Shown here piece by piece: positions 7,692 to 63,393 of a stretch of 64,000 bases of DNA (positions are counted from its first letter, which is position 1; every line of letters starts with the position of its first letter). This DNA is from Planococcus halotolerans (lineage in GTDB: Bacteria > Bacillota > Bacilli > Bacillales_A > Planococcaceae): the NCBI RefSeq assembly GCF_003289955.1, contig NZ_QLZR01000001.1, positions 682,001-746,000 on the forward strand, read 5' to 3'. The notes beneath the pieces are model-generated. The model saw nothing but the letters and a program-made list of their open reading frames with translations, did not search any database and had not been told where the DNA came from. The position numbers and the translations under genes were made by a program.

Positions 7692-7751
7692 AAGGCTTCG
7701 CGGACGCGAAGCCTTCCTTAAGGGATTGGAGTTTTTCGCACGGCGAAAAAC
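7692..7751 (+). repeat. Two-hairpin intergenic element, copy H1
   Basis: Two adjacent hairpins: AAGGCTTCGC-GGAC-GCGAAGCCTT (7692-7715) and GTTTTTCGC-ACG-GCGAAAAAC (7731-7751), the second followed by ATCCGCT and a G/T-rich stretch. The same two-hairpin layout with changed but still paired bases occurs at 38920-38979. Array A1 follows 158 bp downstream. The copy lies between divergent genes, so it is not simply the terminator of a neighbour. Confidence 0.75.
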
Positions 7752-7909
7752 ATCCGCTGTTGCTCTTGAACTTCGGGTGTGGGGAATATATTGGGTGGAA
7801 ATAGTGATTGCGGCACGGAATACAGCGATAAATTTCCATGAAATAGTGTTTTCGGCGAAGAATAACTGAAATGCGGGCTGAAGCAGGGGGCGAAAATAAG
7901 CATCCGGGA

Positions 7910-8029
7910 TTCTATGAGCGGTTATTGACGTTCTATGATCACTTATTGGATTCTATGATCACTTATTCGATTCTATGATCACTTATTCGATTCTATGATC
8001 ACTCAACGGATTCTATGATCACTCGGCTG
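7910..8029 (+). repeat. Helically phased array A1, six units, 20-21 bp period
   Basis: The word TTCTATGATCACTTATT recurs with starts at 7910, 7931, 7951, 7971, 7991 and 8011, so the period is 21 bp once and then exactly 20 bp. The first unit has diverged (TTCTATGAGCGG). It lies between divergent genes and about 120 bp upstream of the MBL-fold gene at 8152. Apart from this array and H1 I see no further gene in 7469-8151. Confidence 0.9.
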
Positions 8030-14534: not shown

Positions 14535-14554
14535 GCTTTTCGCCTGCGAAAAGC
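14535..14554 (+). repeat. Intergenic hairpin element, copy H2
   Basis: Stem GCTTTTCGC-CT-GCGAAAAGC, preceded by TTGGTTTTTC and followed by ATCCATTTTTCTG and a G/T-rich stretch. It lies directly after the GNAT terminator and 118 bp before array A2. The same stem and CT loop occur at 63041 (plus) and 55180 (minus). Confidence 0.8.
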
Positions 14555-14671: not shown

Positions 14672-14776
14672 TTTACCCGCGGCTGCGGCTTATTTATCCG
14701 CGCCTGCGAGGGTTTTATCCACGCCTAGGCGATGTTTATCCGCGCCTAAAGACTATTTATCCGCGGCTAGCGATTT
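14672..14776 (+). repeat. Helically phased array A2, five units, 21 bp period
   Basis: Five units starting at 14672, 14693, 14714, 14735 and 14756, exactly 21 bp apart. The 14-base core TTTAYCCRCGSCTR is conserved; the seven bases between cores are different each time (CGGCTTA, CGAGGGT, GGCGATG, AAGACTA, GCGATTT). It lies between convergent genes. The open frame running through it as a YPRL heptad is a by-product of the 21-bp period. Confidence 0.93.
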
Positions 14777-16250: not shown

Positions 16251-16309
16251 TATTCGCTCCTTTTGTTTATTGGATTCATGTAGATCAGTCCTATTTCCTC
16301 CCTCTTCGA

Positions 16310-16324
16310 TTTATGCTCAACTTT
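16310..16324 (+). repeat. Solitary unit of the TTTATGCCCAACTT word
   Basis: TTTATGCTCAACTTTGG occurs once between the GNAT and the PepSY-like gene. It matches the A3/A8 word with one change. Only a weak T-rich echo follows 21 bp later, so this may be a decayed array or chance. Confidence 0.4.
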
Positions 16325-16341
16325 GGCCTGTTTTCCCCTTA

Positions 16342-16686
16342 TCAGTTCAACGGACCCCTTATATCCAAAACCTCACCAGTAACAGCATCCATTACCACAG
16401 TGGGAATAACGTCTTCATAGCTTATTGTCACTTCCCATTGCTGATCATTAAACAGTTCATTGAGGAATCCCTCCTGCTGACGCAAGGCTAATGTAATATT
16501 TTCTGTGGGTACCGCATCTAATTCGACTTGAATCGCTTGAACACTGACACCAGTTCCGGAAGGTGGATTCTTCAGATATCCGTATGCCTGGACAATTGCT
16601 TGTTCCGTGCTGAGCATAGGTTTTTGGTAGTTATAGAAAGCGAAAAGTACTATGGCAATCAATACAGCAGATACTACTTTCTTCAA
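16342..16686 (-). CDS. Exported PepSY-like protein
   Basis: Protein of 114 residues with an N-terminal signal or anchor (KKVVSAVLIAIVLFAFYNY) and an outer domain ending in VVMDAVTGEVLDIRG, the closing hairpin typical of PepSY/YpmB-like domains. There is no lipobox. The role is unknown; such domains often modulate peptidases or sense the wall. Confidence 0.7.
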   Translation of the reverse strand: MKKVVSAVLIAIVLFAFYNYQKPMLSTEQAIVQAYGYLKNPPSGTGVSVQAIQVELDAVPTENITLALRQQEGFLNELFNDQQWEVTISYEDVIPTVVMDAVTGEVLDIRGPLN

Positions 16687-16881: not shown

Positions 16882-16955
16882 TTCTTTTGGGTTTGTGCGA
16901 CTGGGGGTTGGGTTTGATCTAGTTGGGGGTGGCTACTTTTTCCGGTCATTTTTGA

Positions 16956-17060
16956 TTTATGCCCAACTTTGCATGAAATACGCCCAACTTCGGTCGATTT
17001 ATGCCCAACTTTATGCGAAATACGCCCAACTTCGCCTGACTTATGCCCAACTAACTAATC
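16956..17060 (+). repeat. Helically phased array A3, five units, 21 bp period
   Basis: GCCCAACTT recurs with GCCC at 16961, 16982, 17003, 17024 and 17045, exactly 21 bp apart. The five bases before it alternate between TTTAT (units 1, 3, 5) and AATAC (units 2, 4), so the true unit is a 42-bp pair. The same word and the same alternation occur in A8. The frame reading YAQL repeats across it is not a gene. Confidence 0.93.
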
Positions 17061-17150
17061 TGCAGCTAGCGAGTCGATATTTATTATCACTATCAGTCTC
17101 CTGACAAGTGAAATCGATCTCTCTCATCTTCATTTTTCGAGCGATTTATA

Positions 17151-17234
17151 TTTACTCCCAACTTCGACCTGTTTACTCCTAACTTTCATCGATTTACTCC
17201 CAACTTCAATGTTTTTATTCCCAAGTAGCCATTT
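17151..17234 (+). repeat. Helically phased array A4, four units, 21 bp period
   Basis: TTTACTCCCAACTT starts at 17151, 17172, 17193 and 17214. Unit 2 has CCTAAC and unit 4 TTTATTCCCAAG. It stands 90 bp after A3 and shares its word with A7. Confidence 0.92.
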
Positions 17235-34958: not shown

Positions 34959-34979
34959 GTTTTTCGCAGAGCGAAAAAC
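34959..34979 (+). repeat. Intergenic hairpin element, copy H3, without array
   Basis: Stem GTTTTTCGC-AGA-GCGAAAAAC preceded by TTGGTTTTTTC and followed by ATCCGATTCAGC. It stands right after a terminator like H2. No repeat array follows in the remaining 218 bp before the convergent SRPBCC gene; I see nothing else in that stretch. Confidence 0.75.
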
Positions 34980-35197
34980 ATCCGATTCAGCTCTTTTGAA
35001 TTTGGATGAGGCGGAGACGGCTGGTTCACTTCCAAGGGTGTGTTTCGGGGTGATGGAAAAATAGCAGAAAAGACAAGAAAGTATTTTCTTGTGCACAAAT
35101 CTTCGTTTCCGCGCATAAGCTGCGAGGCGACCAGTAATTTTACTTTATTCACCCGGATAATTTGGTTAAAATCCAAAAAACGGTAGTAAAGAGCATC

Positions 35198-38919: not shown

Positions 38920-38979
38920 AACCTTTGCGAACGCAAAGGTTCCTTTAAAAGACTGGAGTTTTTCGCGGCTGCGAAAAAC
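38920..38979 (+). repeat. Two-hairpin intergenic element, copy H4
   Basis: AACCTTTGC-GAAC-GCAAAGGTT (38920-38941) followed by GTTTTTCGC-GGCT-GCGAAAAAC (38958-38979) and ATCCGCTC. Linker bases TTCCTTTAAAAGACTGGAG nearly match those of H1. It begins 20 bp after the ccdA stop; array A5 follows 218 bp later. Confidence 0.78.
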
Positions 38980-39197: not shown

Positions 39198-39302
39198 TAC
39201 TTTCCAAATTTACTCAAATACTTTCCAATTCACCCGAAATACTTTCCAGTTTGGCATAAATACTTTCTAATTAGACTAAAATACTTTCCAGTTCGTTATG
39301 AC
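39198..39302 (+). repeat. Helically phased array A5, five units, 21 bp period
   Basis: TACTTTCCARTT starts at 39198, 39219, 39240, 39261 and 39282. AAA usually precedes the word, giving AAATACTTTCCA, similar in layout to AAATACGCCCAA in A3/A8. The six bases between words vary. It lies between convergent genes. Confidence 0.92.
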
Positions 39303-40762: not shown

Positions 40763-40965
40763 AAGCCATCCCCCGTTGTATATTCTTCATTTATTCCAAT
40801 AAATCCAGCTGCATGCCGGAAATAAAATCTCCTTTTTTATCCATTTACAAGTCTATCATCTACGGGGTATCCAGGTCATTCGCCGTCCCGTAAACATGCA
40901 ATAAAAATAGATGTTGACAAAGTATGGAAACGGGCGTATTTTTGAGCTTATCACATACCTTTTAT

Positions 40966-41123
40966 TCGCTGAATCAGTAATGAGCGGGGGAACCAATTCG
41001 GATAGCAGCCGCTATCCTGGGGTGAATCTTACATTTGTAAGAAGGGATACTCTTAGTCCCTAATCCGACAGCTAACCTCGTAAGCGTTGACTCCATTAAG
41101 AGAAAGGCCGTAGGTTCACCCCT
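40966..41123 (+). ncRNA. ydaO-yuaA c-di-AMP riboswitch
   Basis: Conserved blocks in order: GAGCGGGGGAACC, CTGGGGTGAATC, GGGATACTCTTAGTCCCTAA, CCGACAGCTAACCTCG and GTAAGCGTTG, closing with GGTTCACCCC. This aptamer binds two c-di-AMP and shuts off K+ uptake genes. The gene downstream is a KtrB-type K+ channel, the expected target. The stretch 40763-40960 before it holds nothing I can identify except promoter-like AT-rich DNA. Confidence 0.95.
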
Positions 41124-42624: not shown

Positions 42625-42945
42625 AAGCTTTTGTATGATCATGGGAGAAGGCGCCGGGAGCGGCGTCGCCTGAGTACAGCCGAGCTGAGCATAGCAGAGT
42701 AAATCGTCGAACAGGAAAAGTAGCGCACAGCAGCCTCTCAAAGAGAGCCGGTGGCAGGTGGAAACCGGTGGGACTAATGCGTGAATGGGCCTGTGAGAGA
42801 TGTCCTGAAAATTGAGTAGGGACATCCGTTTCCCCCGCGTTACTGGGGGCCAAGTGAAAGCTGCAATAGCTTTAACATGAGGTGGCACCGCGGTCAATCC
42901 GTCCTCTGTAAGGAACAGTCCTGTTCTTTGCAGAGGGCTTTTTTT
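42625..42945 (+). ncRNA. T-box leader, tryptophan-specific
   Basis: The antiterminator signature GAGGTGGCACCGCGG is at about 42879-42893 and is followed by a terminator (CCTCTG ... CAGAGG, then T run, 42903-42945). In stem I the specifier loop reads GTGAATGGGCCTG, with TGG, the tryptophan codon, in the usual place. Uncharged tRNA(Trp) would thus allow read-through into trpE. Confidence 0.93.
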
Positions 42946-54787: not shown

Positions 54788-54917
54788 ATGACCCGCTCCT
54801 TTCGAATTTCGCGAAATTTACTAACTATATTTTACCATATTTAGAAGTATTCCCTGAGAAGCGAATATAAAATTGCGGAAAACCGGCTAGGAAACCGGCT
54901 TAGTGCGATTCGTTTTA

Positions 54918-55077
54918 CTGAACGCCGATATAATTCGCTGAACGCCGATTTATTTCACTGAGCGCCGATATAATCTCCTGAACGCCGATTTATTTTCCTG
55001 AGCGTTGATATAATTTCCTGAACGCCGATTTATTTTCCTGAGCGTTGATATAATTTCCTGAACGCCGATTAACAAGC
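54918..55077 (-). repeat. Helically phased array A6, eight units, 20 bp period
   Basis: CTGARCGYYGAT recurs eight times at exactly 20 bp from 54918. Units alternate between a tail of ATATAAT and one of TTTATTT, so the repeat is a 40-bp pair. The strand is given as minus because the associated hairpin H5 (55180-55199) is read on the minus strand and precedes the array in that direction. It lies downstream of the gene at 55233. Confidence 0.93.
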
Positions 55078-55179: not shown

Positions 55180-55199
55180 GCTTTTCGCAGGCGAAAAGC
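55180..55199 (-). repeat. Intergenic hairpin element, copy H5 (minus strand)
   Basis: Minus-strand reading: stem GCTTTTCGC-CT-GCGAAAAGC, then ATGCGTTTTTCTGATGAA, which aligns with the sequence after H2. It follows directly after the terminator of the gene at 55233 and precedes array A6 by about 100 bp. Confidence 0.8.
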
Positions 55200-63040: not shown

Positions 63041-63060
63041 GCTTTTCGCCTGCGAAAAGC
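63041..63060 (+). repeat. Intergenic hairpin element, copy H6
   Basis: Stem GCTTTTCGC-CT-GCGAAAAGC, preceded by GTGGTTTTTC and followed by ATCCATTTGTCTTTTGGG. Flanks and stem nearly equal H2. It is read opposite to both flanking genes, so it is not their terminator; array A7 starts 55 bp downstream. Confidence 0.82.
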
Positions 63061-63114
63061 ATCCATTTGTCTTTTGGGCTTGGGGTTGGTCTGCTGGATT
63101 TTAGTGTGGAAATT

Positions 63115-63198
63115 TTTACTCCCAACTTTGCCTCTTTTATTCCCAACTTCAGTCGATTTACTCCCAACTTTGCTGCTTTTATTCCCAACTCGCTTTTT
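63115..63198 (+). repeat. Helically phased array A7, four units, 21 bp period
   Basis: TTTAYTCCCAACTT starts at 63115, 63136, 63157 and 63178. Units alternate TTTACT, TTTATT, TTTACT, TTTATT. Same word as A4. Confidence 0.93.
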
Positions 63199-63288
63199 CC
63201 GCGATTTGGCACCTCTTATTTTTATCCAGAATGAATGAAAAATGCTATCTCACGCGTAATGTGGACGCCCGAATTTAAGCCGGATTTT

Positions 63289-63393
63289 TTTATGCCCAAC
63301 TTTGGTCGAAATATGCCCAACTTCGGCTGTTTTATGCCCAACTTCCACCGAAATACGCCCAACTTTGCCCCATTTATGCCCAACTCGCTTTTC
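63289..63393 (+). repeat. Helically phased array A8, five units, 21 bp period
   Basis: GCCCAACTT with GCCC at 63294, 63315, 63336, 63357 and 63378. The preceding bases alternate TTTAT and AATAT/AATAC. Same word and alternation as A3. It follows A7 by 90 bp, the same distance as between A3 and A4. No gene is visible in 62925-63508 apart from these elements. Confidence 0.93.

Follow-up and report, generated by a model that had tools for sequence, protein, structure and literature searches.

A composite interspersed repeat is generally regarded as a single family built on one repeat unit. Iterons and ParR-type plasmid centromeres comprise several direct repeats, each about 20 bp in length, placed at a two-turn spacing and bound cooperatively by protein, and CRISPR arrays carry repeats of about 23-47 bp with unique spacers of similar length. 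The BOX elements of Streptococcus have the organisation boxA-(boxB)n-boxC, and the enrichment of BOX and RUP between convergent genes has been argued to reflect tolerated parasitic repeats (PMC3049150). Roles in DNA topology and at transcript ends have been proposed for BIME and REP (PMC3733652).

Hairpins and tandem arrays in the intergenic DNA of Planococcus were analysed starting from a 64-kb stretch of the Planococcus halotolerans genome (hereafter referred to as the window). The source genome comprises 3.62 Mb in 17 contigs, of which 1.18 Mb was analysed; this part contains 28 hairpins and some 85 arrays with a period of 20/21 bp. For comparison, 307 kb of the genomes G029 and G017, 80 kb of G039 and, for five further members of the genus, 80 kb per genome were used, and the gene context of the gaps was obtained with a codon-usage gene caller. 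A literature search among open-licence papers found no report on intergenic 20/21-bp arrays in Bacillaceae or Planococcus. There is roughly an even chance that the sequences described here are clade-specific, BOX- and BIME-like composite intergenic DNA elements, in which the arrays would be helically phased, predicted protein-binding platforms and which would have a boundary role.

The likeness to BOX lies in multi-copy, clade-limited intergenic composites of end modules and a variable-number tandem array, with predicted stem-loops and over-representation between convergent genes (PMC3049150). The end modules and the tandem array are thus shared with BOX but a single array unit common to all copies is not: BOX has one boxB type, whereas the Planococcus arrays fall into about 13 core types with units of 20 or 21 bp, and show homogeneous cores, free spacers, twin arrays of sister types and several unrelated hairpin classes. 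BIME and REP are similar in their short conserved intergenic hairpins with variable loops, located mostly in unidirectional or convergent gaps (PMC3733652). However, instead of the GTAG or CGTC tag of REP, the Planococcus hairpins have GGA(G) or TTTTTC as 5' flank and (C)ATCC as 3' flank, are joined by a helically phased array module and do not require a Y1 transposase. This transposase family (PF01797) is absent from the hairpin-rich genomes G017, G026 and G039 and occurs in single copies in many hairpin-poor ones; an origin from REP and RAYT was rejected on account of its absence from these three genomes. Direct repeats at two-turn spacing (20/21 bp, with few exceptions) are shared with iterons and ParR sites, from which the Planococcus arrays differ in their many core types, in the lack of an adjacent initiator or ParR/ParM pair and in being dozens of chromosomal intergenic copies, the arrays of the 1.18 Mb of chromosome contigs lying at many separate loci rather than at one. 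In contrast to CRISPR, the entire unit measures only 20/21 bp, with spacers of 8-12 bp. The first stem of the class A hairpins, with its A-rich 5' side, resembles that of an intrinsic terminator, whereas the defining second stem is followed by ATCC without a U-run and is nearly invariant in sequence.

The six hairpins reported in the initial annotation of the window (H1 to H6) were all recovered exactly where it had placed them, and far exceed chance expectation. The pattern TTTTCGC-N(0-10)-GCGAAAA has eight matches at six sites of the window and none in each of 100 dinucleotide shuffles, and the whole genome contains 58 matches per strand as against two for a reversed control pattern. The hairpins, their arrays and the further arrays of the window are as follows.

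7692 to 7715, plus strand: first stem-loop of the class A double hairpin of the H1 element, AAGGCTTCGCG..CGCGAAGCCTT, supported by class A stem-1 compensation
7731 to 7751, plus strand: H1 hairpin, GTTTTTCGC-ACG-GCGAAAAAC, preceded by GGA and followed by ATCC, class A (98 bits with model R1)
7907 to 8023, minus strand: H1 array, 20-bp units, core GTGATCATAGAA in minus-strand reading, type T9 (TRF); kept in G029 with fewer units
14535 to 14554, plus strand: H2 hairpin, GCTTTTCGC-CT-GCGAAAAGC with ATCC, class B (pattern; kept in three relatives)
14693 to 14773, minus strand: H2 array, 21-bp units, core CGCGGATAAA, type T4 (TRF; orthologous arrays in G029, G017 and G039)
16953 to 17052, minus strand: array without a TTTTCGC-type hairpin, core GTTGGGCRTA, type T7c, twin of the next (TRF)
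17149 to 17224, minus strand: array without a TTTTCGC-type hairpin, core GTTGGGARTA, type T7a, twin of the preceding (TRF)
34959 to 34979, plus strand: H3 hairpin, GTTTTTCGC-AGA-GCGAAAAAC (pattern)
about 35091 to 35120, plus strand: H3 array remnant of two degenerate units, GTGCACAAAT..CCGCGCATAAG (alignment; three units in G029)
38920 to 38941, plus strand: first stem-loop of the H4 element, AACCTTTGCG..CGCAAAGGTT
38958 to 38979, plus strand: H4 hairpin, GTTTTTCGC-GGCT-GCGAAAAAC, class A (84.5 bits with model R1)
39198 to 39290, minus strand: H4 array, five units of 21 bp, core GGAAAGTATTT, type T8a (TRF; GGACAGTATTT cores instead in G029 and G039)
54914 to 55069, plus strand: H5 array, about eight 20-bp units, core TGAACGCC, type T1 (TRF, alignment)
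55180 to 55199, minus strand: H5 hairpin, GCTTTTCGC-CT-GCGAAAAGC, then ATGC, class B (pattern, alignment)
63041 to 63060, plus strand: H6 hairpin, GCTTTTCGC-CT-GCGAAAAGC with ATCC, class B (pattern)
63114 to 63190, minus strand: first H6 array, core GTTGGGARTA, type T7a (TRF)
63288 to 63385, minus strand: second (twin) H6 array, core GTTGGGCRTA, type T7c (TRF)

Arrays had been placed 55-220 bp past five of the hairpins on the same strand, which agrees with the TRF distances of 157, 140, 220, 111 and 55 bp; H3, described as array-free, proved to carry the remnant listed above, which matches in place the three units of the relative G029, a genome of 95% identity. The initial annotation had also noted a change of the outer pair from C-G to T-A on both arms. 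The change is present, but the state of the pair tracks the flank (GGAG- or GGTTTTTCG-), and since only two states occur in the sample, each with a different flank, it is mainly a marker of two hairpin subclasses and not the result of repeated independent compensation.

An array of 20/21-bp period lies within 300 bp downstream of 21 of the 27 testable hairpins in the 1.18 Mb, and upstream of six; random intergenic positions in the same gene context gave an expectation of 3.4 +/- 1.7 downstream arrays, and 0 of 2000 trials reached 21. Eighteen hairpins have an array downstream only and three upstream only (p 0.0015). Other loci in the Planococcaceae show the same asymmetry (downstream 30/45, upstream 16/51; Fisher p 0.001), in counts that are not fully independent because orthologous loci of different species were counted separately, and unrelated taxa with the same hairpin letters have no arrays (0/27 and 0/24). 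The proposal that hairpin and array form one bipartite element is thus borne out insofar as the two behave as a composite, but their order is not universally fixed and the hairpin is not an obligatory half. In a subclass found among relatives (for example ACTTTCGCTTTTCGC..GCGAAAAGCATCCGTTC) the array precedes the hairpin by 15-34 bp. Several copies of the GGAG class are also accompanied by arrays upstream or on both sides, and at 822, 827, 169.6 and 810 kb of contig C1 the array is upstream. Arrays outnumber these hairpins about 3:1. As a TTTTCGC-type hairpin lies on the 5' side of only 23 of the 85 arrays and some arrays are found with hairpins of another kind, the GCAGTCCGC double hairpin among them, the TTTTCGC-type hairpin is one of several modules that accompany arrays. 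The unrelated double hairpin, GCAGTCCGC..GCGGACTGC with GGGCGGC..GCCGCCC, adjoins T10/T11 arrays at all 16 of its 16 copies, in tandem clusters. A G-rich linker was considered as a signature of the hairpin side and found uninformative, the skew being equal on both flanks.

Higher-order tandem repeats of about 230 bp were observed at C1:28.0-29.3 kb (L017) and C1:52.5-69 kb (L018-L019), each repeat comprising a three-way-junction-like double hairpin (GCAGTCCGC.. with GGGCGGC..) and a 21-bp array; the cluster at 52.5 kb comes after a gene that, as judged by eye, resembles one for an SLH-domain protein. An array-free cluster of related hairpins whose stems are compensated (GCATTTCGC/GCGAAATGC twice and GCTTTTCAC/GTGAAAAGC) occurs at C1:408.6-409.5 kb (L036).

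The class of the hairpin predicts the type of the array (permutation p 5e-5; p 5e-4 without the cluster on contig C10): T1 arrays are the usual partners of class B hairpins and T2 arrays the sole partners of class C, while class A is paired with T8, T9 or T13. The array core is on the strand opposite the hairpin in 18 of 20 composites, both exceptions being T13, whereas in co-directional gaps 21 arrays have the same orientation as the flanking genes and 16 the opposite one. Within a composite the modules are therefore oriented relative to one another, irrespective of the genes, which favours a composite DNA element over a gene-bound RNA; a 3' UTR RNA bound to gene orientation was rejected on this ground. 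A reading of the arrays as Rho sites (C-rich, G-poor) was rejected on inspection, as the core types differ in strand composition.

Class A copies are double hairpins with the layout TGAAAA, stem 1, TTCCTTTAA, GGA(G), stem 2, (C)ATCC. Compensatory changes are found at six of the seven pairs of stem 1 among 23 sequences, this stem lying outside the search string by which the copies were collected, while stem 2 is invariant in the set because the copies were selected by its sequence. A covariance model, suggested in the initial annotation as a check, was built and searched; it gave high-score matches confined to a subset of the genus, the numbers at an E-value of at most 0.001 being 22, 24, 14, 21 and 25 in G000, G003, G021, G029 and G039, respectively, and identified diverged copies in which stem 2 is altered yet remains paired (for example GGACGTTTTCGC/GCGAAAACGTCC and GGATGGTTTTCGC/GCGAAAGCCATCC). 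Together with the position of the hairpins after gene terminators, these paired stems would suit transcribed RNA elements, with the hairpins as 3'-end structures and the arrays as putative sites for RNA-binding proteins or small RNAs in 3' UTRs. Such RNA elements are nevertheless improbable, given the nearly random orientation of the arrays relative to flanking genes and a locked 20/21-bp spacing that RNA would not need; no wobble-pair strand bias was noticed, and no Rfam covariance model matched hairpins H1-H4 above threshold, for which reason a known RNA family was rejected as well. A phage or plasmid origin was likewise discarded, with no match for the H1 element in phages or the H6 element in plasmids.

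The arrays typically consist of 4-6 direct repeats with cores of 9-13 bp, and most span 3-5 matched cores. The core-to-core distance is 20 bp in 137 cases, 21 bp in 232, 19 bp in three and never 22 bp. Core positions carry about 2 bits each, as against about 0.2 bits for spacer positions. The cores within an array are uniform even where two types differ by one base: at the discriminating base of T8 (GGAAAG or GGACAG) 40 neighbour pairs are the same and one is mixed, and at that of T7 (GTTGGGC or GTTGGGA) 65 are the same and one is mixed. Neighbouring arrays no more than 260 bp apart in the source genome are sister types on the same strand in 11 of 11 cases (0.56 expected, p 5e-5), a count from which the T10/T11 clusters, with one type repeated, were left out, in which the pairing of T5 with T6 as sisters is a judgement and in which a single mixed array may account for the T2 pairs at C1 643.6 kb. 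The GTTGGGC and GTTGGGA twins of the window, on the same strand and about 100 bp apart, have cores that differ by one letter. Neutral tandem duplication by minisatellite slippage, seeded by the hairpin and without function, might explain the whole-unit gains and losses between species and the recombination of neighbouring arrays in G029. Slippage would, however, copy spacers along with cores, whereas neighbouring units here have identical cores and unrelated spacers, array types recur at many loci, and neighbours outside the T10/T11 clusters never share a type but belong to sister types; functionless slippage is thus very improbable. One genome contains many parallel families with a strict common architecture and different, internally homogeneous core words, sister words being adjacent, as though each kind of array were intended for a protein of its own. 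This pattern is hard to produce by slippage and predicts sequence-specific binding factors in a genus that is culturable and seemingly harmless.

Among 83 arrays, 37 lie in convergent, 38 in co-directional and eight in divergent gaps (p 1e-7), these gap classes accounting for 20%, 57% and 22% of the gap length, respectively. Some composites are located upstream of genes, such as H1 and the decayed T7 array at about 16310, which weighs against the boundary reading.

For nearly all arrays, G029 and G017 have a counterpart at the orthologous position, in most cases belonging to the same type. Unit number shifts by whole units; the H5 array, for example, has about eight units here and five to six in the relatives. 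The H4 array has GGAAAG cores in the source genome and G017, and GGACAG throughout with unrelated spacers at the orthologous loci of G029 (L185) and G039 (L187), a replacement of the whole array with conserved flanks in genomes that are 95% identical around it. Some orthologous sites retain no more than one or two units, so the arrays are not essential there. A degenerate one-unit T7 remnant is present at about 16300-16350 of the window, just upstream of a minus-strand gene; the same locus has a full five-unit array in G017 and G039 and a hybrid of two sister arrays in G029 (L220), which indicates that arrays recombine.

The distribution of the elements centres on one Planococcus clade. Of the 46 genomes of the genus, 27 have T8 arrays, as against none of 215 others of the family, and in the sampled DNA array density per 100 kb is 7.6-16 in four hairpin-rich genomes and 0-1.2 in five poor ones. 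An exact-pattern scan of public genomes gave matches mainly in Planococcus and Planomicrobium species; those in Bacteroidetes and others outside the Planococcaceae are unrelated and without arrays. The Bacteroidetes bins (L076, L078, L080, L085 and others) contain a high-copy repeat, GGATTTTAGTTTTTCGCAAGCGAAAAACATCCGTTAAATCCGCTTAATCCGATGA, that holds the hairpin letters by coincidence.

The nearest alternative to a boundary role is a slowly spreading repeat with the arrays as putative protein-binding ends. Non-autonomous, slowly mobile BOX- or MITE-like parasites of this kind, in which the arrays would bind a transposition factor and the hairpin would be an end structure or a terminator-like passenger, are possible if somewhat unlikely. 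They would account for multi-copy families restricted to a clade, for the recurrence at two different loci of one subfamily (a GGCT loop plus a T8 array with an identical terminal sequence) and for the local tandem amplification of composites at 28-69 kb of C1 and 809-823 kb of C10; by analogy with BOX and RUP, the enrichment in convergent gaps would also be expected of tolerated parasitic repeats (PMC3049150), which weighs against the platform reading. On the other hand, comparison with a genome of 95% identity places almost all elements of the compared stretch at the same sites, so that recent movement is not seen. The 147 kb compared at this identity contained no clean filled/empty pair and no target duplication, and no terminal inverted repeat was noticed. 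The missing Y1 transposase of three hairpin-rich genomes is a further point against mobile repeats, and selfish spread alone does not explain conserved cores and free spacers at fixed positions.

The two-turn spacing, the constrained cores with free spacers, the switch of core word and the independence of gene orientation together suggest recognition at the DNA level by trans-acting factors. An element consists of a hairpin module, often with two stem-loops, a linker and an array module of about five cores at two-turn spacing; on the platform reading, the array would form a helically phased platform with all cores on one face of the duplex. For each core type there would be a sequence-specific putative DNA-binding factor, probably an oligomerising one, and the hairpin may be the boundary of the element or a cruciform or transcript-end structure beside the array. 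At least 13 core types would demand as many specificities, which is a lot and counts against the platform reading. The position after gene ends, the enrichment between convergent genes and the hairpins point to a BIME-like boundary between transcription units as the most likely role, which might provide topological relief, a roadblock or insulation. The arrays may even be a chromosomal address system, in which related putative proteins with their own core specificities would coat helically phased arrays of five sites where transcription units meet, with one-base sister specificities (GGAAAG/GGACAG, GTTGGGC/GTTGGGA) placed as twin arrays and hairpins marking the element end; this more specific proposal is unlikely.

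Two minor observations were also made. A 1.66-kb stretch at C1:763.2-764.9 kb of the source genome (L054) consists of a second T8 array with XRE-like and GNAT-like frames, as judged by eye, the corresponding position having one array in G029 and a decayed array in G017. The Rfam models matched elsewhere in the window only at a c-di-AMP riboswitch of the ydaO type (40957-41101) and a T-box leader (42698-42909), each of which exceeds the gathering score.
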